IMG/VR virus record: IMGVR_UViG_3300032245_000936
Coordinates: 1-64,000 of that record
DNA: 64,000 bases
Reading direction: 5' to 3' (one strand)
Source: a virus
The notes beneath the pieces are model-generated. The model saw only the letters and a program-made list of their open reading frames with translations, had not been told where the DNA came from and did not search any database. The translations under genes were made by a program, and so were the position numbers. The stretch's first letter is position 1, and every line of letters begins with the position of its first letter. Below, one piece after another: positions 35,790-63,126 of this stretch.

Positions 35790-35792
35790 GAT

Positions 35793-36119: not shown

Positions 36120-36128
36120 ACTGTCTCC

Positions 36129-46535: not shown

Positions 46536-47443
46536 ACAAAATCCAGTCCCATTTTTTCTATAAAAGTGCGTGTTCGTTTTTCACACAAGAAACAGTCAGG
46601 AAACTTGAATTTCAAGATGTCGCTATAATCAAAGTCTTCTTCTGCAAAGTAATCTTGTTCAAACTCTGCATGTACATAACAAGCACTTACTTGTCCATAC
46701 TGGTTGATATACACTTTCTTTTGTTCTAGACTGCGGCACTGAATATCATAGGTGTTGCCATCGTCTGGTAGTGGACGATTTGCAAACAGTTGTTTAATAG
46801 TCTTATCTCGCACTGCCATTGGTTTTACATTGATAGGGAATTTCTTTTCATAGTCATTCTTACGTCGGACCCCTTCAGTTTCAACATACATTATGTTAGA
46901 GAACTCGTTGATTATTTGTTGCATTTCAGCTGACTTTAAGTCTTCGCTATTATACTCAAATCGTATATGTTGCATCCAGTCGTTACCTAGACCATTTTTA
47001 CGCACTGCTCTTGCATGTTCAATAATTTGTTGTAGATCACTGCCCACACGATATATTTCATGTAGCTGTTGTGTGCTACCACAGATGGTAAATGCTACCA
47101 TACATTTTTTAGGTATGCGTTTACCCAGTGCCTCCCACCATTTTGCATCGTGAGTGTTGCCGTTGGTAAACAACTCGTAGTAAATATCACGACTGTTCAG
47201 GTAATCAATGAACTCATCAAAGTATTTGTACATTGTGGGCTCGCTTACTGCACCTGCAATAAAGAAACGTTTGAGTCCTGTATATTGATCTAATTGTTTA
47301 ATTACTTCCTCAATTGGTCGTATATTCTTGCCAACTAGATGTTGTGCGTGTGAATAATTGCGAGTGCATAACGGACACTCTAAATTGCACAGACCAGTCA
47401 GGTCCATTTCAATTTCTTCAATCTCAGACTTCTTAACTATCAT
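46529..47443 (-). CDS. Radical-SAM enzyme, family A (copy 2)
   Basis: 304 residues; CX3CX2C at C19, C23, C26 (CNLECPLC). Shares FTICGSTQQLHEIYR and IRFEYNSEDL with its neighbours. C-terminal Cys (CRSLEQKK, SACYVHAEFE, CFLCEKR) match the auxiliary-cluster pattern of copy 1. The start is ATG 47443, overlapping the previous TGA; the in-frame extension to 47497 lies inside copy 3. Confidence 0.85.
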   Translation of the reverse strand: MIVKKSEIEEIEMDLTGLCNLECPLCTRNYSHAQHLVGKNIRPIEEVIKQLDQYTGLKRFFIAGAVSEPTMYKYFDEFIDYLNSRDIYYELFTNGNTHDAKWWEALGKRIPKKCMVAFTICGSTQQLHEIYRVGSDLQQIIEHARAVRKNGLGNDWMQHIRFEYNSEDLKSAEMQQIINEFSNIMYVETEGVRRKNDYEKKFPINVKPMAVRDKTIKQLFANRPLPDDGNTYDIQCRSLEQKKVYINQYGQVSACYVHAEFEQDYFAEEDFDYSDILKFKFPDCFLCEKRTRTFIEKMGLDFVC

Positions 47444-48354
47444 ACCATTCGCTCCATACCGTTGCGTTCTAGTATACTGGTTGTCATGCTTTCGCACTCG
47501 TAACAGAAGTCAAATTCAAACTTGTGAATCTCAGAGTAGTCATTGTGATCAAACGGGGTCTTCTTGTACACCCGATACAAGAAGCAAGGAAACTCTTCTC
47601 CAAATTGGTTTATGCTCAAAAACTTTGTTTCGTAACTTTTGCAACGCATCTTACAACTTGCACCATTGGCATGTCTTTTTAAGATGCTGTTTTTTATTGT
47701 GTTATATTTTTCGCCGAGCTTGCCGTGCATCTTGATTGCTGTGTCTTCTTTGATAATTCCAAACCGCTCTTGGTATGGACTAGAATCAATCAACCATGGA
47801 TTGCTAAACTCTGCGATAATTGCCTTCATTGCATCAGACTCAAGATCTTTTGCATTATATTCAAATCGTATATGCTGGCACCAATCATTACACTTGCCGC
47901 TTTGACGAAATGCTGTTGCATGATCACGTATCTGTTGCAGACTACTGTTAACACGATATACTTCATGTAGCTCTTGTGTGCTACCACAGATAGTAAAGTA
48001 AACTCTATCTGTTGCCGCAAAGATATCACCCAATGCTTTCCACCACTCTGGCTTGTGCGTATTACCGTTTGTATACAGTTCAATTTTAATACCTCGGCCC
48101 ACTAGATATTTTACCAGTGGAACAAAGTCTTTGTACATGGTAGGTTCGCTAACGCTGCCGGCCATGCAAACAAATTTCAGGTTAGGAAATGTGTCAAGTT
48201 GGGTTATCCATTCATCAACAGGTCTGATATTCTTCTGCACTAGATGTTGTGCATTTTCATATGATCGTAGACAGAGAGGGCAGTCTAGGTTACAGGTGCC
48301 TGTAAGCTCTAGCTCAACTTCAAGTATTTCTGCTCTGTCTAATCCTAGTTTCAT
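47440..48354 (-). CDS. Radical-SAM enzyme, family A (copy 3)
   Basis: 304 residues; CX3CX2C at C21, C25, C28 (CNLDCPLC). FTICGSTQELHEVYR and IRFEYNAKDL again identify the family. C-terminal Cys are in CKMRCKSYETK, FPCFLYRVYK and CYECESM. It is the first of three tandem family-A genes; the three share the same length and likely arose by duplication within the phage or donor. Confidence 0.85.
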   Translation of the reverse strand: MKLGLDRAEILEVELELTGTCNLDCPLCLRSYENAQHLVQKNIRPVDEWITQLDTFPNLKFVCMAGSVSEPTMYKDFVPLVKYLVGRGIKIELYTNGNTHKPEWWKALGDIFAATDRVYFTICGSTQELHEVYRVNSSLQQIRDHATAFRQSGKCNDWCQHIRFEYNAKDLESDAMKAIIAEFSNPWLIDSSPYQERFGIIKEDTAIKMHGKLGEKYNTIKNSILKRHANGASCKMRCKSYETKFLSINQFGEEFPCFLYRVYKKTPFDHNDYSEIHKFEFDFCYECESMTTSILERNGMERMV

Positions 48355-48965
48355 AGATAAATTATGCTGTTAAAATCTTTTTCTTTAAAAACACGCTTGA
48401 TTGAGTCTGGCGTCATGCGTTTATGATACATGGTCAACATGCGATGCTTGTTACTATTACTTAACGTCGGACCTGATATACCCAATGGCATTGTAGCGGC
48501 AACCAAATTGAACTGTATGTCAGGGTACTTATCCAAAAATGTGCCCAAACGATCAAAGTTTAAATCTGTGACAATCAGTAGGTACTGCAAATTTATAGTA
48601 GCATCAATGATAATATCGTCATCTAAATTGATGTCTTCACTGCAATGATATAGTATGGTATCAAAACGAGGCAGTAAATCGCGATAGCGTTTGATAAACA
48701 ATCCGTTGGTATTGATACTAGGGCGGCAACCTTTTGCCTCCAATGCGTCTAGTATGTAAACAATGTCCTCACGTTTCATTGTACCAACTTCGCCACCGCT
48801 GAGTGTTACATTATAGCCAGGTATTATTTTATCTATTTTTTCTTTAACCTGATCCATGCCAAGTTTAGGACGATTGTGTGTGTCCACACAGCAATAGTTA
48901 CAATGCCATTGGCATACCCATGTAACCACAAGTTCAATTTCTTTTTCTTTTGCTTGTATTGCCAT
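48351..48965 (-). CDS. Short radical-SAM enzyme, family B (copy 1)
   Basis: 204 residues; CX3CX2C at C18, C22, C25 (CQWHCNYC). NVTLSGGEVGTMKRED is the GGE SAM motif, INTNGLFIKRY the next strand. LYHCSEDINLDDD is shared with copies 2 and 3. The protein is the size of a bare radical-SAM barrel, without auxiliary-cluster Cys. ATG 48965 overlaps the previous TGA. Confidence 0.85.
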   Translation of the reverse strand: MAIQAKEKEIELVVTWVCQWHCNYCCVDTHNRPKLGMDQVKEKIDKIIPGYNVTLSGGEVGTMKREDIVYILDALEAKGCRPSINTNGLFIKRYRDLLPRFDTILYHCSEDINLDDDIIIDATINLQYLLIVTDLNFDRLGTFLDKYPDIQFNLVAATMPLGISGPTLSNSNKHRMLTMYHKRMTPDSIKRVFKEKDFNSIIYL

Positions 48966-49546
48966 CAGTGCCACCTTGCCACAACTGTAACAAACTCATC
49001 CAGGCTATATGGATGAACCTTGTGCCCGTGTTGGTTGAAGAAGTCCATCATTAGATTCAAACTAATCTTGCGTTGACTACGTACATCAGGCAACAACAAG
49101 AACTTGATATGAGGATACTTCTCTATCATTTTATGTATGCTTCCATCCAGGAAGTTTGTATTGGTTACTACCAATGCGTAGAACACATGATCTAATTCTA
49201 AATTAGGAAACTCTATGTCGTCGGGCAGATACTCCACGCAATGATAATGTATCTTTCCAAACTCATGTACCAATGGCATGTGTTGCCTGAAGAACAACCC
49301 GTTTGTCAACAGGTCAATTATACAGTTCTTGTCCTTGAGCAGTTTTATTATCAACTCCAACTGCTCACGTTTCAGTAACCCAGGCTCTCCTCCGCCAAAC
49401 GTGACCTCTGTGTCGGGTTCAATGGCCTTTACCCTGCGTAGTACTTCTTCAAAAGGCAGCTCTGGTTGGTTGTGTATATCTGCAACACAATAGTCACAGT
49501 GCCAGTTGCACTTGTTGGTTAAAGGCAATTCAATTTCTTTTTTCAT
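48965..49546 (-). CDS. Short radical-SAM enzyme, family B (copy 2)
   Basis: 193 residues from ATG 49546; CX3CX2C at C13, C17, C20 (CNWHCDYC). VTFGGGEPGLLKRE carries GGEP, and HYHCVEYLPDDI corresponds to the family-B signature. Compact, no auxiliary Cys. The longer in-frame reading to 49588 lies inside the next gene. Confidence 0.85.
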   Translation of the reverse strand: MKKEIELPLTNKCNWHCDYCVADIHNQPELPFEEVLRRVKAIEPDTEVTFGGGEPGLLKREQLELIIKLLKDKNCIIDLLTNGLFFRQHMPLVHEFGKIHYHCVEYLPDDIEFPNLELDHVFYALVVTNTNFLDGSIHKMIEKYPHIKFLLLPDVRSQRKISLNLMMDFFNQHGHKVHPYSLDEFVTVVARWH

Positions 49547-50217
49547 CTCAATGCCTTTAACTTGCGGATATTGTTTACTTCCCAGCAACTGGTAATCAAA
49601 TGTAGATAGCTGTCAGGTGCAATACGATCTTTATACTGATTATATACTTTGAATCCATTGGCTCTGCTCAATCCTTTGCCAATTACATTATCTGCTCCAA
49701 ATACTAAAAATCTGATATCCGGATATTGATTGATATAAAAGTCCAAACGGTGCATGGTATCATCTGTGATTACCAATTGAAAATCAATTTTGGATATATC
49801 AACGTGCTCAGGAATCCAAATGTCATCATTGTCTAAATGTTCACTACAGTGATATAAAAAACTGTCTGGGATATGGCATAGATTTTTGTGTTTTTTAAAA
49901 AATGTTCCATTGGTGTTTACATTAACAAAGCATCCTTTATTCTTTAACTCTGTTAACACCCATTCCATAACAGCATGATCAATGAGCCCTGGCTCGCCAC
50001 CAGTTAATGCAACATCACTGTTTCCTGGTATTGCTTCAACTTTTTGTTTTATGTCATGATAGGTTACATCAGCTCTGTTGTGTGTGTCCTCAGAGCAGTA
50101 GTCGCAGAACCAATTACACTTATAGGTTAGGTACAAGGTATAACTGTTAGCTCCATCAAGTCCTCCTTGAAAGAATTCATAGTTGTCGTGCTTTACTCTT
50201 GGCAATTGATTGCTCAT
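49543..50217 (-). CDS. Short radical-SAM enzyme, family B (copy 3)
   Basis: 224 residues with a 25-residue N-terminal extension; CX3CX2C at C34, C38, C41 (CNWFCDYC). VALTGGEPGLIDH holds GGEP; VNTNGTFFKKH and LYHCSEHLDNDD place it with copies 1 and 2. Overlaps the next upstream gene by ATGA. Confidence 0.85.
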   Translation of the reverse strand: MSNQLPRVKHDNYEFFQGGLDGANSYTLYLTYKCNWFCDYCSEDTHNRADVTYHDIKQKVEAIPGNSDVALTGGEPGLIDHAVMEWVLTELKNKGCFVNVNTNGTFFKKHKNLCHIPDSFLYHCSEHLDNDDIWIPEHVDISKIDFQLVITDDTMHRLDFYINQYPDIRFLVFGADNVIGKGLSRANGFKVYNQYKDRIAPDSYLHLITSCWEVNNIRKLKALR

Positions 50218-51239
50218 TTGTAAAACCCTTTTCTATAAAAATTTACCTGTGTGATTTTTTCACCCGGAGCCGGAGTCAGTACCACATCTTTGATCTGTTT
50301 CTCAACACCATCACAGATGTAATAATGTTTACACTCTAAGCAGTCCTTGGTTTTATAGTATGTGCGGTTGCGTTTGAATGCGGCTGCATCATACATGGCC
50401 TTGAGTGGATCAGCGCGATATGTTTCAGGATCGATGTCACCATTGTATACCGCAATATTCCAATCATATACATCATAGATATGTTGATAATAATTGCAAA
50501 CGTATTGTTCATAGCCTGTCATGAAGCAATAAGGTGTGTACCTTACGTTGATTTTTTTAACTTGATCTTTTAACAAATCAATGGCCTGATGTACATAAGG
50601 TGTAACTTCAGCGTAGTTGATAGTGTCTTGTTTGCCAGCATCGTCCCAATAGTTGAGAGTGAGAAAGTTCACTTCAAAGGGTTGTAGTTCTTGCATCAGT
50701 GCCACAAACTTTGTGGGCAAGGATTTGTAGTTCCGGTGAGTCACTGTGCAATTAACACGAACCAAAATGCCTAACTCATGTGCATTGTGTATGGCCTGGA
50801 CAATATTTTCAAAGCCCTTGCGATGACCTACTAATATGTTGTGAGACTCTTTGTCATAACCATGTACACTAAATAGGATTTCTTCTAGTCCGTGTTCTTT
50901 TGATTTTGCTAAGAATTCTTTATTGGCAAATTTGTACCCATTGCTCAGTGTACTGATTTTCAATCCATGCCCGCGGCAGTAGTCTAGTATATCAAACCAT
51001 TGCTTGTGAATACTGCTTTCTCCACCACTAAGGTCTACTTCTTTAATTCCACAAGCAATCAAATAATCAATGCGTTCTTTTATTTTTTCAAACTCAGTTA
51101 CTTCATCAAGCTGTGTTTTGTAATAGCAGAACTCACAACGATAGTTGCAATGTGTGCCAGTGTCTAGTTTGGCACGATTGCACATAGGCTCGTTACTATC
51201 AATCTGTAACTTATTGCTCAGCTCGTTGTATAGTCTCAC
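50214..51239 (-). CDS. Radical-SAM enzyme with C-terminal Cys cluster
   Basis: 341 residues from the GTG at 51239 (TTG 51266 is an alternative). CX3CX2C at about C31, C35, C38 (CNYRCEFC). VDLSGGESSIHKQW gives GGE, STLSNGYKF the next motif, FSVHGYDKESHN the barrel strand. The C-terminal CLECKHYYICDG is a short SPASM-like Cys set (C-x2-C-x4-C). MoaA/SPASM-like overall. The overlap with the next gene is 29 bases. Confidence 0.82.
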   Translation of the reverse strand: MRLYNELSNKLQIDSNEPMCNRAKLDTGTHCNYRCEFCYYKTQLDEVTEFEKIKERIDYLIACGIKEVDLSGGESSIHKQWFDILDYCRGHGLKISTLSNGYKFANKEFLAKSKEHGLEEILFSVHGYDKESHNILVGHRKGFENIVQAIHNAHELGILVRVNCTVTHRNYKSLPTKFVALMQELQPFEVNFLTLNYWDDAGKQDTINYAEVTPYVHQAIDLLKDQVKKINVRYTPYCFMTGYEQYVCNYYQHIYDVYDWNIAVYNGDIDPETYRADPLKAMYDAAAFKRNRTYYKTKDCLECKHYYICDGVEKQIKDVVLTPAPGEKITQVNFYRKGFYK

Positions 51240-52056
51240 GTTCAATCTCTTGGTATTGTTGGTCAATTGGCTCTGGATCAGCCTGATATTTCTTTTTACT
51301 TGCCACCATCAATTTAAATGATGACACCGATTCTTTATAACAAGTCCTACTAAAACTACTGCAATGATTTAAACATATACTTTGGCTATCAAAGAACTTG
51401 TATCTAATAGGGTGCTCTAATGCTTCCTTTAGTGACACTGTGTTTAGATTTGCAAAGGCCAACTTATCATTATAAGGAACATTGTCTTTTACGAACTTAC
51501 AAAACATCACATCACCATTGGCCAATATCTTGGGCATACTGTGAAAATGGCATTTGAGTTTAGAGTTGAATTCTTCGTTTATTTTTGTGCCGGTGTAATT
51601 GAAAACATAGTTTCGATCGCGGCGCTCTAGGTTGTAACGTATACCGGCTGCATCAAGTTCATCAATTCGACGATGCACAATATCAAATAAATTTTTATCC
51701 ATGCCGGTTAGCTCTTTGAACTTTTCTGGAGTGTCACCATAATAACTGATACAGAATTTAATATTGGTCATACCAATTTTTTTCAGCTTCTCTACATTCA
51801 CTGCGGTTACATTGGTAAACACAATGGTGTATTTCATATGCGTGTTTACAAAATCAAGCATTTCATAAATGTCAGGATGCAGGAATGGTTCGCCTTTTGC
51901 AGGAATCAAATCAACTTCTGTTATGCCCATTGCCTTTGCTTCTAAAATAATTCTTTTGAATAATTCTAGATCCATATACTGCGGCTCGGTGATATCTTTG
52001 GCTTTGCAAAAATAGCATTTGAAATTGCAATACTCAATGATTTCTACCACTATCAT
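51211..52056 (-). CDS. Radical-SAM enzyme, MoaA/SPASM-like
   Basis: 281 residues; CX3CX2C at C10, C14, C17 (CNFKCYFC). DLIPAKGEPFLHPD contains GEP; VFTNVTAVN the following strand. Later Cys occur in FCKF and in CLNHCSSFSRTCYK (C-x3-C-x6-C), likely binding an auxiliary cluster. It begins the run of eight consecutive radical-SAM genes (minus strand, transcribed first). Confidence 0.82.
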   Translation of the reverse strand: MIVVEIIEYCNFKCYFCKAKDITEPQYMDLELFKRIILEAKAMGITEVDLIPAKGEPFLHPDIYEMLDFVNTHMKYTIVFTNVTAVNVEKLKKIGMTNIKFCISYYGDTPEKFKELTGMDKNLFDIVHRRIDELDAAGIRYNLERRDRNYVFNYTGTKINEEFNSKLKCHFHSMPKILANGDVMFCKFVKDNVPYNDKLAFANLNTVSLKEALEHPIRYKFFDSQSICLNHCSSFSRTCYKESVSSFKLMVASKKKYQADPEPIDQQYQEIERETIQRAEQ

Positions 52057-52946
52057 ATTATGCCTTTAAGGATGTCCACTATCTCATCATTGGGCTTTAG
52101 ATGGATGCTGTCAAACTTATAGTCAATATCCCAGCGTCTCCAATACAGTCCTAGATCTTCTGCCCAGTAATCTATATCATGATAAATTACCTCTTTGCTG
52201 TAGTATTTACATTCGGCTATGAAACGAGGCGAACAATCCCACTTTCTTTCAACTGGAGTGTACACATACGTGGTAAACTGTTCAAACAGATTGTCTACTG
52301 GTGGAAGTATAAACGTAATTCCAGTCACTGGAGTTGGTTGATTTTCTGCATTGGTAATTGCAACAATAGGTTTATTGTATCTTGCAAAGTCTGCCCAATC
52401 TTTTATATTGCGGCAGTTTTTGGTGGCATACAGCAATATTTGATTTTTGCTTTCGCCAATGGTTTTTAGTCGACTAAAGAGTATTTTCTTTTTATAGTTG
52501 ATTCCGTTGGTTTTGACAGGATCATACACACGGTCGTCTTGTAAGATGTAGACGTTGTGTTTATCATTGTCTTTGATCTCTTTGTTTCCGCAAGCAAAGA
52601 AGATGATGTTGTCAAATAACAGCGTGTACTCTTGTGCATTTACAATACCTCCGTCTGTAAATAAAATATTACGGCCACGTAACAAACTAGGGCGATTGCC
52701 GAACACAGTATGTGCGCGAATATCGGCAATTTCATGATCTGTAAAATCATACTTGTTTCTAATACTTCTCTCAACGGTTTGCCAATCAATATCTTCTCCT
52801 AAAAAAATTCCCACTTTAAAATGATCTTTGAGTACGTGATAGTAGTCAAATACTTCAAAGGTATGTCCACACACGCCGTGATTGTTGTTGCTCCAGGTAT
52901 AGCTGAGCCAGAGATCGTACGAAGGATCTAATTGTATTATTTTCAT
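52053..52946 (-). CDS. Unrecognised protein, possibly glycosyltransferase-like
   Basis: 297 residues, alpha/beta, with strands (NILFTDGGIVNA, KPIVAITNAENQ) alternating with helices. Its C-terminal YHDIDYWAEDLGLYWRRWD recalls the end of nucleotide-sugar enzymes. No clear DxD or EX7E is found. It overlaps both neighbours by ATGA in the operon before the radical-SAM block. Confidence 0.45.
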   Translation of the reverse strand: MKIIQLDPSYDLWLSYTWSNNNHGVCGHTFEVFDYYHVLKDHFKVGIFLGEDIDWQTVERSIRNKYDFTDHEIADIRAHTVFGNRPSLLRGRNILFTDGGIVNAQEYTLLFDNIIFFACGNKEIKDNDKHNVYILQDDRVYDPVKTNGINYKKKILFSRLKTIGESKNQILLYATKNCRNIKDWADFARYNKPIVAITNAENQPTPVTGITFILPPVDNLFEQFTTYVYTPVERKWDCSPRFIAECKYYSKEVIYHDIDYWAEDLGLYWRRWDIDYKFDSIHLKPNDEIVDILKGII

Positions 52947-53731
52947 CTGAGCATTGCCTTTACCATTACATCATCTTGTGTCAGTGTGTAATTAGTCAGT
53001 CCGTTTTGTTTGATATCATTGTAGCGTAGCATGATTGAATCTACACCTGTATAGACTTCTTCTACTGTGACTTGTTTATTGTAATAAAATCCCTCAGGGA
53101 TGATTCGATTGTTGCTGTCTCGTACCACATGTATATAATGCACTGCATCAATCAATTCAAACAAGTTGCCTACTCCAGTGTGTTGCTTCTTTAGTATAAT
53201 TGGTCGATTGAACTGTTTCTTTAATCGTTCATATTCAAATCGAATAAACTGTGGGTCCAGACAACTCACAAACACGCCAGGTGCTGAAGTTGTTAGCTGT
53301 GGGAATATTTCAAAGTTTAATTTTAGATAGCAGAACACATCGTAGTATTGAAAATCATAGCTTCCGTAGTAGGTTACAGATCTTTGATTGCGGTAGCGGA
53401 ACCATTCGTGTTCTTCGTTGCTAAAACAATGTACTTCGTTGGTGAAAAACTCTCGGCATTGACGAAATGTATCAACATCCAGTACCAGAGTTCTGTCTAG
53501 ATCAAGTTGATAGAGTTCGGTGAGTTTGATTGGAACAATGCCGTCTGTGAAAATTTGATATTTTTGAGAAAGTATGTTTGCGACGAGGCGAAGATCGCCT
53601 TCTGTTATGCCTATAACATAAAATTGAACATCAGTATATTTTTGTAAAAACTTAAAATATTCAAAGCAGTAAAACAGAGTTCCGTTGATCTTGTTATGTG
53701 GTTTGTGTTTGTACACCACTCCAAGTTTCAT
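52943..53731 (-). CDS. Unrecognised protein of the same operon
   Basis: 262 residues, alpha/beta. The start MKLGVVYKHKPHNKINGTLF and the strand DVQFYVIGITEGDLR suggest a Rossmann-like N-terminal domain as in GT-B enzymes. RPIILKKQHTGVGNLFELID could contact a phosphate group. It may pair with the protein at 52053-52946. Function unproven. Confidence 0.45.
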   Translation of the reverse strand: MKLGVVYKHKPHNKINGTLFYCFEYFKFLQKYTDVQFYVIGITEGDLRLVANILSQKYQIFTDGIVPIKLTELYQLDLDRTLVLDVDTFRQCREFFTNEVHCFSNEEHEWFRYRNQRSVTYYGSYDFQYYDVFCYLKLNFEIFPQLTTSAPGVFVSCLDPQFIRFEYERLKKQFNRPIILKKQHTGVGNLFELIDAVHYIHVVRDSNNRIIPEGFYYNKQVTVEEVYTGVDSIMLRYNDIKQNGLTNYTLTQDDVMVKAMLR

Positions 53732-53732
53732 A

Positions 53733-54347
53733 TTAAAATCTTGCGTAGAAGTCTTCTAAAAAGTTTTGTTCTATTGTTTTAACTTCTTCTTGTGTGTTAG
53801 ACAATTTAATTGCAGTGCGGAATGCACTGAACTTTCTTTCTAGCTGTGCCACAGATTCAATTTCATCTTTGTAGTTTAGATAATCTTCTAACTTGGTAAT
53901 CAGTTTCTCGTCGCCGGTTTCAAGTATTTCCAAATACTTTTCTTCACGGTTGTCATTGGTGATGAAATATCCAGCATTGGCTAGATCGTTGTTGAGCATG
54001 ATAAATCCATACATGGTCAGCCCAGCAATCTTGGAAAGCTCTGGTGTAATCAACATGCGAATTTTTATCATGGCTGCATTTCTTGCTTCCTGGAGAGGGT
54101 CTGTTTCCATAAGGTCAATGACCTCAAACTCCCCGGGCAATACTTCCGTGGTTCTGAGAGTTTTACTGATATGAATAGTTTTGTTTTCAACCACTGCTTT
54201 TTTCATCATCTCAGCACTCATGTAACTGAGTTTGAGATATTTTTCTTGGTGGTCCGCCGGGGCATCTAATGTGTTGTTGACCACATTAGTTACCCGGTAG
54301 TAAGTGCCGCAGTCAATGACGTGGGCCAGATCGTAAAGCATTGTCAT
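53733..54347 (-). CDS. Unrecognised helical protein next to the Cys-rich tail fibre
   Basis: 204 residues; charged helical sequence with a short N-terminal beta part (VIDCGTYYRVTNVVNN). Start ATG 54347 follows GAGGA; an in-frame ATG at 54371 has no ribosome site. It lies between the cysteine-rich tail fibre and the 52943 gene, so it could be a fibre partner or an accessory to modification. No motif recognised. Confidence 0.5.
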   Translation of the reverse strand: MTMLYDLAHVIDCGTYYRVTNVVNNTLDAPADHQEKYLKLSYMSAEMMKKAVVENKTIHISKTLRTTEVLPGEFEVIDLMETDPLQEARNAAMIKIRMLITPELSKIAGLTMYGFIMLNNDLANAGYFITNDNREEKYLEILETGDEKLITKLEDYLNYKDEIESVAQLERKFSAFRTAIKLSNTQEEVKTIEQNFLEDFYARF

Positions 54348-54373
54348 AATTGATTCCTCATTGTATACCAAAT

Positions 54374-55042
54374 TCAGATTGGTAAGAGTTTATAGTTCAC
54401 CATGTAAAATCCGCGAGCATCCTTCTTTAATGCTTGTTCATGTTTGGTTCCAACTAGTTCTTGAGCAATAACGCCAACATACTCTGTGGCTTTGTCCCAG
54501 ATATATGTCCAAGAATAGATATTCAGACCATTGCGTGTTTCAATGAACTTGATGTTTTCTTTGAGACGTTGATCACTGTAGTTACAACCGCAGTCGTTGT
54601 GACAACTACAAACGTTGTTACAGGAGCAGTCTGAATTACAAATACAATCTTGGCGAATTACATCGTAACGTGCTTTGAGCTCCGTCCAATGAGTAATCTG
54701 TACCTTTGTGCCTGCGGCCAGCGAAGCCGGAACTGTGGTCAGATATGCTACCATAGTACGAAGATTGTTGTATTGTCCTGACGTGGCTGTGGTTGCGCCC
54801 GGTGAAAATGCAGTTCCCTCATACAATGTGTATGGGCCGTAATCGCCATGAGAATCATAACGAGCAATCTCGTCACGAATACTGCTACGTAATAAATTTA
54901 TATCTGCGGCTGTTACCTTACCACCTTGAGCCCATTCATTACTCATGGTAATGGCTCTGTTAGTAGAGCAGCCAGGACGGTGATTTGAACAGGATGATGT
55001 GCCTGTTCCGTGGTCAGTGCAGTGTGAACCAGAGCATGCCAT
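54374..55042 (-). CDS. Cysteine-rich short tail fibre with S74-type chaperone end
   Basis: 222 residues. Cys at 3, 8, 18 and 25 form an N-terminal set rich in His and Gly (CTDHGTGTSSC). Residues 133-153 contain eight Cys in a strict C-x-C-x3 repeat (133,135,139,141,145,147,151,153). Immediately after, SDQRLKENIKFIE marks the intramolecular chaperone (peptidase S74) domain of trimeric phage fibres, with WDKATEYVGVIAQELV and the VNYKLLPI end. The middle (about 35-130) is a fibre shaft domain. Two SPASM radical-SAM genes follow upstream; the Cys array is a plausible substrate. Disulfide or metal binding are alternatives. Confidence 0.85.
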   Translation of the reverse strand: MACSGSHCTDHGTGTSSCSNHRPGCSTNRAITMSNEWAQGGKVTAADINLLRSSIRDEIARYDSHGDYGPYTLYEGTAFSPGATTATSGQYNNLRTMVAYLTTVPASLAAGTKVQITHWTELKARYDVIRQDCICNSDCSCNNVCSCHNDCGCNYSDQRLKENIKFIETRNGLNIYSWTYIWDKATEYVGVIAQELVGTKHEQALKKDARGFYMVNYKLLPI

Positions 55043-55046
55043 TTGG

Positions 55047-56222
55047 TTAAGTTCCTTCCATTTCTAATTGTTTTGCTTTTTCAGTAACAACTTGTAATTC
55101 GTTGTCAAGGTAGGATTGAACGGTTCTATCAATTTCACCAAATGCCTTAAAAAAGCCACACATGTTGTTTACCCAACGATCAGTCCAACGATCGAAGTAA
55201 TCTTCTTTTTTGCTATTGTCTAAACTGGACACTGGGCAAATCATACAAGTCGTAGCAACACAGCCTTTGCAAATATCTGAAACTGTACGAATTGGAATGC
55301 TGTATGTTTCACTCATCTTGGCTACGTCGTCAACAAAACTGTCTTGGTCAATACTACTGCCTCTCATGAGTTCTTTGTTTGGACTGTACAAAGATCCATG
55401 GCAAGCATAGCTTTGTCCATCAACGTCAATGGCGTGCATGTTGGCACCAGACGCACAGTGTACTTTTGTGTCGCCGCCGTCAAACCATGACATCAAATGA
55501 TGATTGTGCTCACGATAGAATTTGATTTCTTCTCGCGCAACCATTAACATTTCTTTTCTAAAATCTTCAATCATCTTAGGCAAGTCGCCAGATGGAATCT
55601 CATTCACATAATCAATTGTAGGAGCATAGGTCACTGTGATATTTCTACCAATGCTGTTTAGACGTTGGTGTAAATCACGGAAGTCTAACCAAGTCTTGTA
55701 AAGACCAGTCATGCTCTTGAGAGGAATGGTGCTTTTCAATGAGATGTTAATACCTTTACGTGCAAAGTATTCAATGTTCTCTACCACTGTGGAGCTGGTT
55801 GGTTTACCAGTGTGAGTTAAACGGAATTTGTCATTGATGTCTTTTCCGTCGTAACTGATTTGAATCTGTAGTTTGCTAGTATCTACTGCATCAAAAATAT
55901 CTTCTAGGCGCTTGCGGTTATAACCATTGGTGTAGATATGAAATTCAATCTCAGGATACTCATTGAATTCATTCATTACATCAATAATCATTTTACCATT
56001 TAGTGTTGGCTCACCACCCCAGAAGCTGATGTTCAAGCTGTCATATTTGTTGCGGAACCAAGGTGACTTTCTTAGTTCGTGAATACGCTGTTTAACTAGA
56101 TCTAGTTTGTCGTCTAGACGTTGTTTGTTGGTCTTCACACCCTCAAAGCAATAGGTGCAACCCAAGTTGCACAAAGCAGTGGTGGTGATTTCGATAGTAA
56201 ATTGTCCTAAACGTTCATTCAT
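55047..56222 (-). CDS. SPASM radical-SAM maturase-like enzyme
   Basis: 391 residues. CX3CX2C at C18, C22, C25 (CNLGCTYC), SFWGGEPTLNGK with GGEP, HIYTNGYNRKR, and SYDGKDINDKFR as in SPASM peptide maturases. The SPASM region has C-ASGANMHAIDVDGQSYAC, then CKGCVATTCMIC and a final Cys in NNMCGFF. That full set for two auxiliary clusters matches anSME/ranthipeptide/sactipeptide maturases that alter Cys or Ser/Thr side chains. Its stop is four bases before the Cys-rich fibre start, the strongest clue to a substrate. Confidence 0.9.
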   Translation of the reverse strand: MNERLGQFTIEITTTALCNLGCTYCFEGVKTNKQRLDDKLDLVKQRIHELRKSPWFRNKYDSLNISFWGGEPTLNGKMIIDVMNEFNEYPEIEFHIYTNGYNRKRLEDIFDAVDTSKLQIQISYDGKDINDKFRLTHTGKPTSSTVVENIEYFARKGINISLKSTIPLKSMTGLYKTWLDFRDLHQRLNSIGRNITVTYAPTIDYVNEIPSGDLPKMIEDFRKEMLMVAREEIKFYREHNHHLMSWFDGGDTKVHCASGANMHAIDVDGQSYACHGSLYSPNKELMRGSSIDQDSFVDDVAKMSETYSIPIRTVSDICKGCVATTCMICPVSSLDNSKKEDYFDRWTDRWVNNMCGFFKAFGEIDRTVQSYLDNELQVVTEKAKQLEMEGT

Positions 56223-56452
56223 TGTGTGTCTTTCCCCATGGTCATAATTTCATCTAAAATGCTCATCATACGATCATCTGAAACTTTTTCTTCTTCAGGT
56301 TGAATAATCAACGCCATTTCAGCTGCCATGTGTAAAAGTTTATCGGATTCGTCCTGAAATTCTTGCACATTTGACAAGTGTTTGGATGCTTCCAGTAGAT
56401 GATTGCTGGCATAAAACAGCGCCTTGTTCATCTTTTTAATGCTAGTTGACAT
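56219..56452 (-). CDS. Small helical protein between the SPASM genes
   Basis: 77 residues, helical: KKMNKALFYASNHLLEASKH and LLHMAAEMALIIQPEEEK. Start ATG 56452 has GAGGA at good distance; 56458 would be closer to it. Overlaps the SPASM gene by ATGA. It could be a precursor-recognition or adaptor protein for the maturases, but no evidence beyond position. Confidence 0.5.
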   Translation of the reverse strand: MSTSIKKMNKALFYASNHLLEASKHLSNVQEFQDESDKLLHMAAEMALIIQPEEEKVSDDRMMSILDEIMTMGKDTQ

Positions 56453-57449
56453 TCTCAATTTCCTCTTTAAGTTGTTGTATAAAGTACGGATTGCTACCTA
56501 GCTCTTGTGACATCCTACTTACTTGCCTGTAAGTGTATTTATATATGCTACAGAGCTCCACGATAGGACCTTTGTTTTTGATTTGCTCAAATAAACAGCC
56601 TTTTTCGCAGTAGTTTTTTACTTCGCAGGATTGACACTCGGGCATTTGTGCATATTTGGGTATTTCTGCAATCAGCTCGGGTGCTTTGGTAAAACGTGTG
56701 CAGGGCACAATCTTGTTGTCGCTGAACATGAATATGTCTGTTCCTGCGCCGCAGTTGTGTTTTTCTAATCCTTTAACTTTGTAATTTAAAAAATGGCGAA
56801 GATAAAATGTGATGAAAAACGGCATCTGCTCATGCGGATTTGCGATGTACCAATCAAACAGTTCTTCGATACCTGCTTTGAGTTTTTCCACACTAGCAGA
56901 ATCCCATACATCAACGTCACGTACCAGCGTAAGCTCTGGATTCACTCCAAAGTGCTTTTTTATAAACAAATGATTTTCCAATAGGTTATAGCAACCCTTG
57001 TAAATCATTGTGTGCATACGTAGGTTGGGTATCTGTTTGAATAGATCTGCTTTTTCTAAAAATCTATGTGAGGTTTTGCGACCGTTTAACTGTAGCCTAT
57101 ATTTGTCTTGCCACAGTCCGTCAAAACTCACAGATGTTTCAATTTGTTCTTTAACTAGGTACTCCAGTATTTCATCTGTTAACAACAACCCATTCGTGGG
57201 CATGAATAATTTTACATTGCCATCTTCACGTACACCATCTACTATACGCTGAATCAAATCAAATTGCAACAGGGGCTCACCCCCAAAAAAATCAATCTTG
57301 ATACGTTCAGTCGGGTGTTGTTCCCGCATCTTTCGAAACTCATCAAGATACATGTCTACATCAATGGCTTTTTTGCTCCATTTATCCACGTCACAGTAGG
57401 TGCAATTTAGATTGCACTTTTCTGAAAGGACCACAAGCAAGGTTTTCAT
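56442..57449 (-). CDS. SPASM radical-SAM maturase-like enzyme, second
   Basis: 335 residues. CX3CX2C at C12, C16, C19 (CNLNCTYC), KIDFFGGEPLLQFD, FMPTNGLLLTDE and SVSFDGLWQDKYR. The SPASM domain has CGAGTDIFMFSDNKIVPC, CQSCEVKNYCEKGC and CSIYKYTYRQVS. It differs from the enzyme at 55047, so the two may act in sequence or on different residues. Overlaps the small helical gene and the dehydrogenase gene by 4-11 bases. Confidence 0.9.
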   Translation of the reverse strand: MKTLLVVLSEKCNLNCTYCDVDKWSKKAIDVDMYLDEFRKMREQHPTERIKIDFFGGEPLLQFDLIQRIVDGVREDGNVKLFMPTNGLLLTDEILEYLVKEQIETSVSFDGLWQDKYRLQLNGRKTSHRFLEKADLFKQIPNLRMHTMIYKGCYNLLENHLFIKKHFGVNPELTLVRDVDVWDSASVEKLKAGIEELFDWYIANPHEQMPFFITFYLRHFLNYKVKGLEKHNCGAGTDIFMFSDNKIVPCTRFTKAPELIAEIPKYAQMPECQSCEVKNYCEKGCLFEQIKNKGPIVELCSIYKYTYRQVSRMSQELGSNPYFIQQLKEEIENVN

Positions 57450-58183
57450 TTTCTATAGATCTCGTTTAATTTTAATACAGTATTTAAGAGCTCTATGTCA
57501 AACATATCTGCTAGTGCTTTTGTATCTTTAGGCAAGCACGGGCCACCAAAGCCTCGCTGGCCATCTGGGCCCGGAACTTGAAAATGATGTGTGCCCATCC
57601 ATGGCTGCATTTTTAACACATCAACGATACTGTTGTAGTCAGCGCCCAGCTCATTGGCAACATCATATATGGCATTCATGTATGTTACTTTGAGTGCATA
57701 AAAACTGTTCATTGTGTATTTGGCCAATGCCGCAGTTTTTATGTCTGTGAATTTTACTGTGCTCATGTTCACATCAGAGTATTTGCGATACAGATCTGCC
57801 ACACGCTGAGTTTTGTCTGTGTCACCACCTAGTAGTACAAAAGGCGGGTTAATAAAATCATCTGCGGCTGTTGCACGGCTTAAAAACTCGGGGTTGTAAA
57901 CAATGTCGTATTGTTCTAGCACATGTGGAAGTGCTGTGCTTTTTACAACAACAATTCCTTGGTAATTGGTACTTTTAATACGTTCCAATGTTTCACGTAG
58001 TATTTGATAGTTGCTATGATCAGTAGGAGTAGGCACACATACAAAAACAGCGTCAGGATTTTCCCCACACATATATTCTATGCTGAGATCGTTGTATGCA
58101 GGGTCAGAGAGCATCACTGCGGTTTTACTAAACCCAGTTGCCACCGCCTTGCCAACCATTCCGTAACCAATTATTCCGATCAT
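57446..58183 (-). CDS. UDP-glucose/GDP-mannose dehydrogenase-like, short
   Basis: 245 residues against about 430 for UDP-glucose 6-dehydrogenase. GIIGYGMVGKAVATGF is the NAD loop, VFVCVPTPT and VVVKSTALP the following strands, YNPEFLSRATA, AALAKYTMNSFYALKVTYMN and the catalytic Cys in GFGGPCLPKDT. The C-terminal UDP-binding domain is missing. Such truncated forms occur in phages. Preceded by its own host-type promoter. It may be active on a smaller donor or as a partner. Confidence 0.8.
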   Translation of the reverse strand: MIGIIGYGMVGKAVATGFSKTAVMLSDPAYNDLSIEYMCGENPDAVFVCVPTPTDHSNYQILRETLERIKSTNYQGIVVVKSTALPHVLEQYDIVYNPEFLSRATAADDFINPPFVLLGGDTDKTQRVADLYRKYSDVNMSTVKFTDIKTAALAKYTMNSFYALKVTYMNAIYDVANELGADYNSIVDVLKMQPWMGTHHFQVPGPDGQRGFGGPCLPKDTKALADMFDIELLNTVLKLNEIYRK

Positions 58184-58251: not shown

Positions 58252-60315
58252 TTATCGAATTGTAACAGCGGCTTCAACTAGTTCTTCGCCTGATGTTACT
58301 TTTTCTTGCAGAGTACGTCCAATTACATTAAATGCTGTGGCTTCACCGGGTTTGGCAGCACGGGCCACTCCATTTCCTGCACTTACCAAACGGCCATTGC
58401 GTTCTACTGGGCCAACCACACGCACAGGAACTCGTCCTGCTAGTGCAACTGGAAGACCATCTGAACCTGCATTCAGCACATGTCCTGGATTGGTAGAAAT
58501 TACGCCAAACACATTTTCACTTGCATCGTCGTTCTCTTGAGTAATTTCAGCTGAGCCGCCAATTCTTACTAGTGTACCTGGTGCGTAGTCTATGTCACTT
58601 GCATAACGTTCTGCCAAGTCAGCGTATCTTGCTTGAATTGACACACCGTAGATGTTGTTCCACCATGCGCCTGAGCTACCTAGGTTAACTGCGGCATTAC
58701 CAGCTGGCAATGGAGCAGAAACAAATGTTGCTGTACCGCCAACTGTCAATGTGGTTAACTGTGCTCCACTGGCATAAATTACACCAAAACGACTTGTGGA
58801 TTGACCAATGTCGCCTGACAGGTTAGCACCAAAGTGTGGAAGGCTAGTAACAGTCACCGCACCAGAGTAGATGTTGGCAAAAGTACGCAATGGAGTTCCA
58901 AGTTCGTACTGGTTATCTGTAGATGGCTTGAGCGTACCTGTTAGGTCCAATGAGCCATCTCTGTTTAACTTGTTTGCAGTATGGTTACTGACTTCACCTT
59001 GTAGAGCATATACGTTAGAGAACATACTGCCAGCTGGACCTGGTACTGCACCAGCACCTGGTTGTCCAAGGTTACTTAGTACGTTGGCATGAATTGCAGA
59101 AACGTTTGCCCATAAAGTCAAAAGGTTTCCTGCAAATGTATCGTTGGTTGTGAAACGTGCGTATGCGTTTGCGGTATATCCGCCTTGAGCAATCGCTAAC
59201 AACGTTGGGTTATTAAAGCCCAACTGTGATTGTAACAAACGAACGTTACCATACATGGCTGTGTATGAACCAGTTGTGGTCAATACGTTAGCAACAATAG
59301 TACCAATACTGGTATTCAATGTGTTAACGTTTGATGCCAAGTAGGTTTGTAATGTGCTTGCTAGGTTGTCAACATAGTTCTTGGTTGCAACACCTAGACC
59401 AGTTTGTGGGTCGGCCAACACTGTGATCAAACCAGATGATTTGTCAACTGTTAATACGTTAACTGTGGCACCAGCCGCGTTGTCAGGTTTGGATTGAATT
59501 ACTAAACCGTTACCACGTACACGACTGAATAGGTTAACGTTTTGACCAGCGACTGTGATTGTGAAGTCTGTCACTGTACCGCCAAGTTCTTGAATGGCCA
59601 AACCGTCTGGTGTTTGAATAACCAATTGGTTATTCAAAACTGCATTGGTCTTGGTTAAGAACTGGTTAGCTGGGACTCCGCCTAGATAAGCAGAGTTGTT
59701 GGCATTTTCATAATACAACAACGATGGAACGTTGTCAGAATTTAGGTTAAAGCCCGGCTTAACAGTTGCAAAGCCTGGCAATGTTGTTTGTGGTGTAAAT
59801 GCAGAGTCTTTTGACAAGATAGCAACCAAACGGTTCTGCACATAGAACTTGACAACCACGTGCGGAAATAGTGTGGTATCAATGATTGTGTCAGCAACCG
59901 CACCAGATGTACCAGTGGTTGTGGTAAAGCTAGGGCCAATAATAACCCAGGCTGCACCAGAGTATACTTTTAACTGCTGATTAACTGAGTCAAACCACAA
60001 GTCACCAGCAACTGCATTGGTTGGTTGATCTGCTAGACTCTGGGCACCAGAAATTGACTTCCACGTACCATATGTGTCGTAGACTTGTAACACTCGTGTG
60101 TCTGATTTCCACCATAATTGTCCTACTAGCGGATATAATGGTGCGCTTCTGTTAGAGAAGTTTTCTAGCAGTTTTACAAAATTCTCGTTCAGGAACGTGC
60201 CATAACCAGCATAGTTCTTTCCGATCAGTGTTAGACTGGTAGTGATGTTATTGGTCTGACCGTCTGCGACCACTGTCAACGGCGTTCCGTCTGATTTTAC
60301 TATGTTATAGCTCAT
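58252..60315 (-). CDS. Large tail-fibre/virion protein, paralogue of 60355-63126
   Basis: 687 residues. The N-terminus SYNIVKSDGTPLTVVADGQT and LVGQLWWKSDTRVLQVYDTY is shared with the next protein, a module repeated three times in the first 150 residues (QLWW..., GDLWFDSVNQQLKVYSG...). The centre is beta-rich repetitive shaft. The C-terminus has YADLAERYASDIDYAPGTL, VFGVISTNPGHVLNAG and LAGRVPVRVVGPVERNG, a conserved terminal domain of T4-like distal fibre or collar proteins. Probably host-recognition. Confidence 0.8.
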   Translation of the reverse strand: MSYNIVKSDGTPLTVVADGQTNNITTSLTLIGKNYAGYGTFLNENFVKLLENFSNRSAPLYPLVGQLWWKSDTRVLQVYDTYGTWKSISGAQSLADQPTNAVAGDLWFDSVNQQLKVYSGAAWVIIGPSFTTTTGTSGAVADTIIDTTLFPHVVVKFYVQNRLVAILSKDSAFTPQTTLPGFATVKPGFNLNSDNVPSLLYYENANNSAYLGGVPANQFLTKTNAVLNNQLVIQTPDGLAIQELGGTVTDFTITVAGQNVNLFSRVRGNGLVIQSKPDNAAGATVNVLTVDKSSGLITVLADPQTGLGVATKNYVDNLASTLQTYLASNVNTLNTSIGTIVANVLTTTGSYTAMYGNVRLLQSQLGFNNPTLLAIAQGGYTANAYARFTTNDTFAGNLLTLWANVSAIHANVLSNLGQPGAGAVPGPAGSMFSNVYALQGEVSNHTANKLNRDGSLDLTGTLKPSTDNQYELGTPLRTFANIYSGAVTVTSLPHFGANLSGDIGQSTSRFGVIYASGAQLTTLTVGGTATFVSAPLPAGNAAVNLGSSGAWWNNIYGVSIQARYADLAERYASDIDYAPGTLVRIGGSAEITQENDDASENVFGVISTNPGHVLNAGSDGLPVALAGRVPVRVVGPVERNGRLVSAGNGVARAAKPGEATAFNVIGRTLQEKVTSGEELVEAAVTIR

Positions 60316-60354: not shown

Positions 60355-63126
60355 TTACGGTAGGTATTGGAACCATATATCGTTGTCTGCTCCGTCGCCA
60401 GATCCAGGTGCGGCTGTAGAAATGTATTTTCTGCTACCACTCCAATATGGCACGCTTGCATAGGTTGTTGCCCAGGTTTGTACCCATCCAGTACTAGCTG
60501 CCTTAGCAGTGTTATCAGTAGCAGGCGCGGTATTACCCAGTGTCACTATCCCTGTAAATGTTGGATTGTTAATTGGTGATTTTGTGTTAGCAACAGTCAT
60601 AACAAATGCTGTGCTGGCAATCTGCAGGTTTGCTGTGCCTGCAGGCGCTGTTGGGACTGCAGGAACTCCACTAAATGCTGGACTTGCAATTGGTGCGGCG
60701 CCAGTGATATCTCCAACAACCAGAGCTACATTGCCTATTTTGCCTGCTACACTCAGTACAGGTGATGATGTTTTAACAAACTGTGTTGTGGCAATCATTG
60801 AGTTAGATGTTGTACTTGGTGCTGTGGGTGCCTCTGGTACACCAGTTAAAGTTGGACTTGCCAAGTTAGCCTTGATGCTCATCAAATTGTCGGTAACCGA
60901 CAGCATCAATACATTTGCCGCTGTTACTTTATTGTGAACATACTGGGTCGTGGCAATCATTGTACTAACATTACTGTCAGTTGGTGTCACTGATTGCGGA
61001 ACGCCAGTTAGTACAGGGCTTGCAAGCGGAGCTTTTAGTGCTAACTGTTGATCTGTATAGTCTCTGAGAGTTGTTACTAGGTTACCAACAAACCAAGTAT
61101 GTGCAATTTGCAGAGTGCGTGTTGCGTCACCGCTGGCTGGACTTGGTACTGTTGGAATACCAGTGAACTCTGGGCTGGCAATGTTGGCTCTTAATAAGAT
61201 CTGAGCATCTTGTGTTAGTGCATTGGCAGTGAATTTGTTGTCTAGATCATCTAGTCCGGTTGTAACAAACTCTGTTGTTGCCAATAGTGTTGAGCTGTCG
61301 CCTTGATTTGCAGTTGGTGCTCTTGGGAATCCAGTAAATGTTGGATCAGCAATGTACGCTTTGAGATCAACATCTACTCGCAGAGCATCGGCAGTGGCAA
61401 TAATTGTATTGGCCAATGCACTTATGTTGCTAAAACTTCGTCTGTTAACAGGTGCGCTTGGACCAATCAGTGTGTTTACATTGTTTTCAAGATTAAGTGT
61501 TACCGCTGCGTTTGCTTGGTCAACATAATTTTTAGTAGCAACGCCCAATGATGATGTTGGATCCATACGAACTTCAACATTACCGTAGCCGCCATTGATG
61601 TATAAACTGCGTACACGATTTCCAGCAAGTGTAAAAGTCTCGCCTAGTCCAATGTTAGCAGGACTGCTTAAAAGAATTTGACTATTGCCGCTGAATATAT
61701 CTGCTACAACAATTCTATCTTGTGCGCTGACATTTCCGCTAACAATAATATCGCCAACGAATACATTACCTGTACTCTGCACTGAGATCAAATTTGATAA
61801 CACTGCCCCAATAGAAGCTGTGGCACTACGAGGTGTTGTTGTGGCAACACTGGTATAGACGCTGATATCGTGCCCGAAGCCATTGCTATCAATTTGAATA
61901 TCGCCACCAGCTGGCGGTGCTTTGATGCTAAAGTTGTTGTCTGCACCAACATACAAGTTGCCAGTGGCCAGACTTACATCTCCTAAGAATGTTTCATCTC
62001 TGTCTCGACGTGCATAGTTGTCAGGAGTAACATTGTTTAATTTTAGTGCATTTGACACTGTGCCATTGAACATGTAATCTTTGTCGACGCCACCTTGTAA
62101 TTCTACCAGCTCGCCTGTTGCAACTGCTGTAGTTGTGTTAATAGTTACAGTTGAATTTGCTGAATCAATTGACCCAACTGTGATTCCTGATGAAAACGCT
62201 ACATTGCCACTGATAAAATAATCGCCAATTCTTATATTTTCAGTGCTGGATAGTTGTATTGTGGTCTCACCTGATGAACCTTGTGCTGTTGCTGTAACTG
62301 TTTTGACCACTCTGCCTGCGGTAGTACTGTGTAATGTTATACCTGGGCCAATGATTCTGAATCCTTCGATTGCAGAAGCAACTGCTAGAGTAAATTCTGC
62401 GTCCTTGCTGGTAACGCCAAGTACCTTGCCGTTGGTATAAATTAAACCAATGGTATGAACAATTCCGTTTGTGTCTGTTACTGTGCGTGGAGATATGCTG
62501 GTATTGCGTTGTGATCGTGTCCAACTTGGTCCAACTATGTACCACCCGGATCCATTGACAAATGTAACTGTCTCACCGTATCCAATGGTATAAGGATTAG
62601 TAATGCGAACGGTTGTTCCACTGGTAATTTGCTCAACTACTGCAAAGTCAACAGGTCCAATATTAGCGTGTTGTACTATGTCACCTACTTGAATACCGGT
62701 TGTGGTGTTTACTGTTACCACATTGCCAGTGCTAGGCAATGTTGAAGTCAATACGTTTGTGGTTTGACCAGACCAAACTTTCATTTGATACTCAGTAGTG
62801 TCCCACCATAGGTCGCCTATACGAGCACCTGCTGTTGCTGGTGTGCTACCGGAACTGATTAAAAATGCCAGTGGTTTCCAGTTTGTGCCTTCCCATGCGC
62901 TTAGTAACTTGGTTGTGGTGTTCATCCACAGTTGGCCAACCAATGGTAAAATTGGTGCCGCGCTGTTGGCAAAATTTTCCATCAAGTGGACAAAGTTGTC
63001 GTTGATGAATACGCCGTAACCAGAATAATTTCTACCAACTAGCGTAATACCGTAATCAGTATTAAGCTGGGTATCTGGTACTGGAACCAGTGTGTCACCG
63101 TTTGTTTTAATTATTGTATATGACAT
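60355..63126 (-). CDS. Large tail-fibre protein with C-terminal repeats
   Basis: 923 residues. The N-terminus SYTIIKTNGDTLVPVPDTQ and LVGQLWMNTTTKLLSAWEG is shared with the protein at 58252. Between about residues 600 and 890 there are six copies of a 40-45 residue fibre repeat, with phrases such as SPTLTGVPEAPTAP, then TTQFV: adjacent units are PTFTGFPRAP, PEFTGIPTVP, PVLTGVPQSV, PTLTGVPEAP, PAFSGVPAVP and PTFTGIVTLG. These are typical of phage long-tail-fibre/lambda Stf-type shafts. The end (PGSGDGADNDIWFQYLP) may be a tip. Confidence 0.85.
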   Translation of the reverse strand: MSYTIIKTNGDTLVPVPDTQLNTDYGITLVGRNYSGYGVFINDNFVHLMENFANSAAPILPLVGQLWMNTTTKLLSAWEGTNWKPLAFLISSGSTPATAGARIGDLWWDTTEYQMKVWSGQTTNVLTSTLPSTGNVVTVNTTTGIQVGDIVQHANIGPVDFAVVEQITSGTTVRITNPYTIGYGETVTFVNGSGWYIVGPSWTRSQRNTSISPRTVTDTNGIVHTIGLIYTNGKVLGVTSKDAEFTLAVASAIEGFRIIGPGITLHSTTAGRVVKTVTATAQGSSGETTIQLSSTENIRIGDYFISGNVAFSSGITVGSIDSANSTVTINTTTAVATGELVELQGGVDKDYMFNGTVSNALKLNNVTPDNYARRDRDETFLGDVSLATGNLYVGADNNFSIKAPPAGGDIQIDSNGFGHDISVYTSVATTTPRSATASIGAVLSNLISVQSTGNVFVGDIIVSGNVSAQDRIVVADIFSGNSQILLSSPANIGLGETFTLAGNRVRSLYINGGYGNVEVRMDPTSSLGVATKNYVDQANAAVTLNLENNVNTLIGPSAPVNRRSFSNISALANTIIATADALRVDVDLKAYIADPTFTGFPRAPTANQGDSSTLLATTEFVTTGLDDLDNKFTANALTQDAQILLRANIASPEFTGIPTVPSPASGDATRTLQIAHTWFVGNLVTTLRDYTDQQLALKAPLASPVLTGVPQSVTPTDSNVSTMIATTQYVHNKVTAANVLMLSVTDNLMSIKANLASPTLTGVPEAPTAPSTTSNSMIATTQFVKTSSPVLSVAGKIGNVALVVGDITGAAPIASPAFSGVPAVPTAPAGTANLQIASTAFVMTVANTKSPINNPTFTGIVTLGNTAPATDNTAKAASTGWVQTWATTYASVPYWSGSRKYISTAAPGSGDGADNDIWFQYLP

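Follow-up and report, generated by a model that had tools for sequence, protein, structure and literature searches.

A phage cysteine array paired with SPASM-type radical-SAM enzymes: a candidate for crosslinking at the virion tip

Why should a phage encode a fibre-like protein with a strictly regular array of cysteines directly behind a radical S-adenosylmethionine (radical-SAM) enzyme? The question is raised by a 64,000-nucleotide stretch of virus DNA, positions 1 to 64,000 of the IMG/VR record IMGVR_UViG_3300032245_000936 (112,657 bases in total), which is referred to here as the window. All of its features described below lie on the minus strand, and at their centre is an operon for two radical-SAM enzymes with SPASM-type C-terminal cysteines, rSAM1 and rSAM2, a small helical protein and a 222-residue protein that carries the array. 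The answer favoured here, with a probability of about two in three, is that the cysteine array is the substrate of the SPASM enzymes, with thioethers as the likeliest, if unproven, bond. Crosslinking by radical-SAM/SPASM enzymes is known from small peptides and from a few cofactor or enzyme maturations.

The genes follow one another in the order UDP-glucose-dehydrogenase-like gene, rSAM1 (56442-57449, 335 residues), the gene for the 79-residue helical protein (56219-56458), rSAM2 (55047-56222, 391 residues) and the Cys-array gene (54374-55042). The first four overlap successively by a few bases, and the array gene starts 4 bp after the rSAM2 stop. Its product consists of an N-terminus with four cysteines, a helical middle, the array and an S74 chaperone domain, and is kept in relatives (L001-L010 and L131-L149). 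The 12 cysteines stand at residues 3, 8, 18, 25, 133, 135, 139, 141, 145, 147, 151 and 153, and the last eight make up a perfect (C-x-C-x3)x4 repeat, CICNSDCSCNNVCSCHNDCGC (residues 133-153; 54584-54646), a pattern that did not arise once when the protein was shuffled 300,000 times. A preliminary description, made from the letters alone, had already given these open reading frames, the eight-cysteine repeat, the four N-terminal cysteines, the S74 domain and the four-base gap, and all of them are borne out by the sequence and by the Pfam model PF13884.

Across eight aligned relatives the array is 71-96% identical, against 14-41% for the middle of the protein and 27-62% for the S74 domain. The array codons swap between TGT and TGC among relatives while the cysteine is kept, the sole exception being the first position in one distant relative, and the array is under purifying selection. 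Beyond the cysteines the pattern is also nearly fixed, as CICNSDCxCNxVCxC..(D/N)CxCNY.

The position of the array within the mature protein can be predicted from the S74 domain. Membership of this family is indicated by PF13884, which scores 30 bits against a cut-off of 22 over residues 156-196, and the AlphaFold model of the fibre has fold matches in BFVD to ‘intramolecular chaperone auto-processing’ proteins (E-value 6e-7). S74 domains cleave themselves before a conserved serine, activated by a lysine five residues further on, which in T5 pb1 are Ser1264 and Lys1269; the cleavage of pb1 uncovers a distal end that is the proposed receptor binder (PMC4690869). The array protein has the same dyad at the same spacing, Ser156 and Lys161 in SDQRLK (54560-54577), with self-cleavage predicted between Tyr155 and Ser156, and Ser156 directly follows the array (...CGCNY/SDQRLK). 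Homologues that lack S74 terminate at this same predicted cut point, in NY, NYS, NYA, NYTA or NYTQ. Because the array ends at the predicted cut site and because the S74-less homologues stop there, the array is predicted to form the C-terminal tip of the mature protein, whether S74 is encoded or not, which lends support to the word ‘tip’ in the preliminary description. The window protein is thereby like the S74 fibres T5 pb1 and K1F endosialidase in its C-terminal S74 domain, which has the Ser and, five residues on, the Lys; unlike in these fibres, what cleavage would expose is the Cys array, beside whose gene modification genes lie, and in some relatives S74 is split or absent.

Among 69 distinct array proteins, a full S74 domain is present in 23 and no more than a short stub of it in 16; another 15 terminate at the array or close to it, and the other 15 have some different ending. 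Where the domain is split (L146, L193, L204, L208, L209 and L210), the array protein stops after the stub SDxRLKxxIxYM and the remainder of S74 is the next open reading frame, of 86-103 residues and 0-27 bp downstream, which suggests a chaperone that works in trans. In L193, four tandem stub-bearing array proteins are followed by a single open reading frame for the S74 remainder. The fibre model has no significant match among PDB folds, and no structure of the tip is claimed because its predicted local distance difference test score (pLDDT) is below 50 at residues 1-17 and 136-152.

Both enzymes carry the CX3CX2C motif of radical-SAM proteins, as CNLNCTYC at residue 12 of rSAM1 and CNLGCTYC at residue 18 of rSAM2, as well as a GGEP motif, and both match PF04055 (1e-14 and 9e-14, respectively). 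Seven C-terminal cysteines are present in each and are invariant over eight relatives. SPASM domains were recognised by seven auxiliary-cluster cysteines in the order CX9-15GX4C, CX2CX5CX3C and C, and it is by this motif that the two enzymes are assigned, with departures: rSAM1 has CX2CX5CX3C with N in place of G, and rSAM2 has CX2CX4CX2C. The earlier identification of two SPASM enzymes holds in respect of this motif, which both possess, but not in respect of the Pfam SPASM model. The best NCBIfam match is PapB (NF047865), with 101 bits and 5e-29 for rSAM1 and 89 bits and 3e-25 for rSAM2, against a cut-off of 340; the CXXX-repeat maturase model TIGR04115 gives 53 and 52 bits, respectively, against 350. 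As every score lies under its curated cut-off, neither enzyme is assigned here to a named maturase family. Cyclophane formers, sulfatase maturases (which convert Cys to formylglycine) and thioether formers are matched at similar scores. The nearest structure is PDB 5wgg, the SCIFF maturase CteB (4e-23 for rSAM1 and 4e-15 for rSAM2), and rSAM1 and rSAM2 are closest to such peptide maturases.

The N-terminal part of CteB contains its peptide-recognition domain. The alignments of rSAM1 and rSAM2 begin only at CteB residue 97-103, and neither enzyme has an N-terminal extension. A recognition element (RRE) is not used by every system for ribosomally synthesised and post-translationally modified peptides (RiPPs). 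The 79-residue protein is free of cysteine and is modelled by AlphaFold as three helices without strands (pLDDT 87.8), for which no PDB fold match was found at E≤0.001. A PqqD-like RRE was considered for it and rejected on the all-alpha model and the lack of a significant PDB match; it may still be an adaptor of some other kind.

Does the array go with the enzyme elsewhere? IMG/VR was scanned with DNA patterns for the array that were blind to the enzyme, and out-of-frame chance matches, which made up most of the matches, were discarded. Every one of the 19 genuine array proteins with the six-residue unit comes from a record with rSAM2: for 17 the enzyme is in the same locus, and for two (L119 and L128) it is on their contigs, which are those of L138 and L142. 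In the reverse direction, a scan with an rSAM2 profile gave 38 homologues, the window and near-duplicates included, and a Cys-array gene is present for 37 of them, at identities down to 26-30%. Of these arrays, 31 were typed by regular expression and the six imperfect ones (L143, L146, L149, L161, L162 and L165) by eye. The array gene starts no more than 75 bp from the end of rSAM2, save in the Campylobacter phages, where it lies 2.2-2.6 kb upstream, in L146, where it is also upstream, and in L167, where the distance is 431 bp and the rSAM2 frame is broken. The pair stays together where other neighbours differ (L009/L145, L144 and L146).

The unit itself varies, and 8-mer CxCNYxCT, 7-mer CxCNYCT and C-x3 types are also found beside rSAM2 homologues. 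Mapped on an rSAM2 tree of 43 rows, array type switches four times, where the minimum is three, compared with a mean of 17.0 when the labels are shuffled. Enzyme and array remain together across deep divergence, and a chance neighbourhood within one lineage is as good as ruled out by dozens of diverse contigs and three cultured phage groups. Scans for 7-mer and 8-mer arrays gave 54 loci, almost all in records with radical-SAM genes. Units of the form CNCNFCP occur in some arrays on fragments without such genes (L229, L230, L232, L234 and L189), and extreme arrays, with 83-90 cysteines in 346-364 residues, lie beside radical-SAM genes in L195, L196, L201 and L215. No cellular relatives turned up when 84,980 genomes were scanned by alignment, so nothing points to a bacterial origin of this form.

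The cultured phages that bear on the question include Campylobacter phages of the CP220 group. Phages of this group, the Firehammervirus phages CP220 and CPt10 among them, resemble the window in having homologues of rSAM1 (24-25%), rSAM2 (27-29%), the enzyme at 50214-51266 (47-52%) and the 212-residue protein described below, together with a Cys-repeat protein. The last of these, a 534-residue protein with 35 cysteines in CDCNYCT repeats, is encoded 2.2-2.6 kb from the rSAM2 homologue. The genome paper on CP220 and CPt10 counted 11-12 radical-SAM proteins, which were interpreted as metabolic, and described one intragenic 21-bp repeat, between which and the radical-SAM genes it draws no connection (PMC2853527). 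According to the repeat annotation of the CP220 record itself, that repeat is the Cys array. A tblastn search of cultured phages with the array alone matched nothing and missed even this CP220 array, probably through low-complexity filtering, and it carries no information on how widespread the array is.

A different arrangement is seen in Cronobacter phage CR5, Salmonella phage SPN3US and Erwinia phage pEa_SNUABM_9, where two adjacent genes for CSGx-repeat proteins of 127-147 residues, with 20-21 cysteines each, lie immediately upstream of two radical-SAM genes. The CR5 repeats score 31.5 and 33.7 with TIGR04114 (‘tSAM_targ_Cxxx’), above its cut-off of 20, and one SPN3US repeat scores 19.6; the CR5 enzyme matches the ‘CXXX-repeat target’ maturase model TIGR04115 at 2e-32 and 113 bits, under the cut-off of 350. 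A long, fully supported branch of the tree divides the CR5/SPN3US enzymes from the rSAM2 clade. The arrangement joins phage Cys repeats to a SPASM enzyme for a second time, here to a distant relative of rSAM2. The main texts of the SPN3US virion papers do not mention gp163 and gp164, which are the radical-SAM pair, or gp167. In CR5 the Cys-repeat reading frames (L013:5142-5947) are unannotated, and a small hypothetical gene is annotated over the region on the opposite strand.

It is proposed that the operon would act as a maturation module for the virion tip. The Cys-array protein would be a fibre-like structural protein that ends, once S74 has cleaved itself, in the array. While this protein is still in the host cytoplasm and its tip immature, one or both SPASM enzymes would modify the array cysteines, the prime candidate being rSAM2, whose gene lies immediately upstream. 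The modification would most probably consist of thioether crosslinks like those of ranthipeptides or sactipeptides. Because rSAM1 and rSAM2 are without an N-terminal recognition domain, the 79-residue protein may be what presents the substrate. The result would be a covalently locked tip, formed prior to assembly and independent of the oxidising environment that disulfides need. As a possible gain for the phage, the preliminary description had put forward a stiffer fibre or one that resists proteases and redox change. The broader proposal, that there is a widespread and hitherto overlooked class of viral post-translational modification in which several distantly related phage groups crosslink Cys arrays of virion structural proteins with their own SPASM enzymes, that the unit (6-mer, 7/8-mer or CXXX) evolves with the enzyme and that S74 cleavage exposes a crosslinked tip, is given even odds.

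A number of observations weigh against the array being the enzymes' substrate. The evidence is made up of sequence and linkage, and linkage within a module can maintain a pairing without any contact between enzyme and substrate; linkage on a shared DNA segment could alone yield the agreement between array type and enzyme tree. Besides several genes that are sugar-related or of no known kind, the region contains ten radical-SAM genes, so that the enzymes could have other targets. The Pfam SPASM model PF13186 matches neither rSAM1 nor rSAM2, neither reaches any curated NCBIfam maturase cut-off, and the 79-residue protein as modelled does not have the PqqD/RRE fold. As to the surveys, the preliminary description had taken many homologous Cys-array fibres in phages lacking SPASM genes as a finding that would tell against its proposal. 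The 6-mer arrays (19 of 19 with the enzyme) and the rSAM2 homologues (37 of 38 with an array) are in keeping with the proposal, the remaining homologue being on a fragment, L156, with no array in view, but the 7-mer or 8-mer arrays on L189, L229, L230, L232 and L234 are not, since none of these fragments (13-60 kb and maybe incomplete) has a PF04055 match, and they constitute the main contrary evidence.

The same five fragments favour the possibility that the array binds metal, with six thiolates to each C-x-C step of a trimer, and that the linked radical-SAM genes act elsewhere. The tip of the T4 long tail fibre (gp37) holds iron in HxH steps, and the window array is like it in having regular ligand pairs at a trimeric fibre tip and unlike it in that these are Cys, not His, and are paired with an enzyme. 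In a protein that has a trimeric-chaperone domain, C-x-C at the terminus would make a plausible metal site, and the phage also has a gene for Fe-S cluster biosynthesis (35793-36119; PF01521, 4e-21). Metal binding is nevertheless judged quite unlikely, as it leaves unexplained the near-strict pairing with one clade of SPASM enzymes, the second pairing in CR5/SPN3US and the shifts in Cys spacing from 6 to 7, 8 or 4 residues. Equally, lysis could be followed by normal disulfide formation in the array; the SPASM enzymes would then be directed at another target, such as a glycan, a nucleotide or a host factor, and the linkage would reflect a shared host-recognition module. The UDP-glucose-dehydrogenase-like neighbour and the sugar-related genes would suit this explanation, as would the host-recognition cluster of pelagimyophages, which is reported to hold radical-SAM cassettes (PMC7029224). 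It is considered improbable, however, given that the best resemblance of rSAM1 and rSAM2 is to peptide maturases and that the array and rSAM2 stay together in loci where the other neighbours change.

A further explanation retains the array as the target and alters the product, which would be not a thioether but, for example, C-C or C-O crosslinks, epimerisation or conversion of Cys. Such a product is somewhat unlikely: although the NCBIfam matches mix cyclophane formers, sulfatase maturases and thioether formers, it is mainly the cysteines that are invariant in the array, and the top matches, PapB and CteB, are Cys-thioether maturases.

The system has partial counterparts. Like PapB and CteB, it combines the radical-SAM and seven-Cys SPASM architecture with a Cys-rich substrate candidate encoded beside the enzyme; unlike theirs, the putative substrate is no short precursor peptide but a structural protein of greater size whose array is C-terminal, and the enzymes are without an N-terminal recognition domain. 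With the CXXX-repeat systems (TIGR04114/TIGR04115) it shares the pairing of tandem Cys repeats and a SPASM enzyme, but the window repeats have the unit C-x-C-x3, and the TIGR04114 model gives no match to them. The term ‘RiPP-like’, which had been applied to the locus, is apt as an analogy and does not extend to membership of a named RiPP family, the scores being under the cut-offs. Neither the class of enzyme nor the concept of a Cys-repeat substrate is new. The open-access literature yielded no paper that links phage radical-SAM genes with Cys-array structural proteins, although a report in a subscription journal could be missed, and in that literature the use on a phage structural protein, the tip position exposed by S74 and the spread over phage groups were not found.

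Crosslinking of the array, if true, would mean that radical-SAM/SPASM chemistry builds part of a virus particle, and it would account for the batteries of radical-SAM genes in some phages, which have hitherto been interpreted as metabolic (PMC2853527). The prediction is directly testable in the cultured phages SPN3US, CP220 and CR5. Such arrays are easily missed by standard trypsin proteomics because of their long stretches without lysine or arginine, which in the two SPN3US repeat proteins comprise 85 residues with 21 cysteines and 69 residues with 16 cysteines. A large family of protein repeats, with up to 90 cysteines in 346 residues (L201), would likewise become candidates for crosslinking.

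The module extends past the coordinates of the preliminary description. A 212-residue protein (53733-54371; phrog_25260) is encoded directly after the array gene in most relatives, and its CP220 homologue adjoins the baseplate hub gene. It is followed by conserved module proteins of 262 residues (52943-53731) and 297 residues (52053-52946; phrog_24441), both present in relatives; an identity as glycosyltransferases was dropped for these two, as Pfam gave no match and no credible PDB relative was found. Eight additional radical-SAM genes lie downstream (45624-52056), with starts at 51211, 50214, 49543, 48965, 48351, 47440, 46529 and 45624. Several of their products have extra C-terminal cysteines and three are only about 205-225 residues long.

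On the other side of the operon, the short UDP-glucose/GDP-mannose dehydrogenase-like protein (57446-58183) precedes rSAM1 in the window and its closest relatives. It has only 245 residues, in which Pfam finds a shortened N-terminal domain and the central domain and leaves the C-terminal domain unmatched. In CP220 the homologous gene is annotated about 1.5 kb ahead of the rSAM1 homologue. Upstream of the module are a tail-fibre-like protein (58252-60315; phrog_19602 tail fiber protein, 2e-11) and a tail-fibre protein of 923 residues (60355-63126; phrog_2631 tail fiber protein, 1e-30).

The phage-encoded Fe-S cluster biosynthesis protein could help to load [4Fe-4S] clusters, which would suit a phage that needs many. 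Its gene is flanked, within 34998-36839, by an adenosine 5'-phosphosulfate kinase-like gene (PF01583) and by a gene whose start looks by eye like that of a sulfotransferase, for which Pfam gave no match. Finally, a DegT/DnrJ aminotransferase gene at 45013-45627 encodes only 204 residues, with the family matched in two stretches, and is probably truncated or internally deleted.

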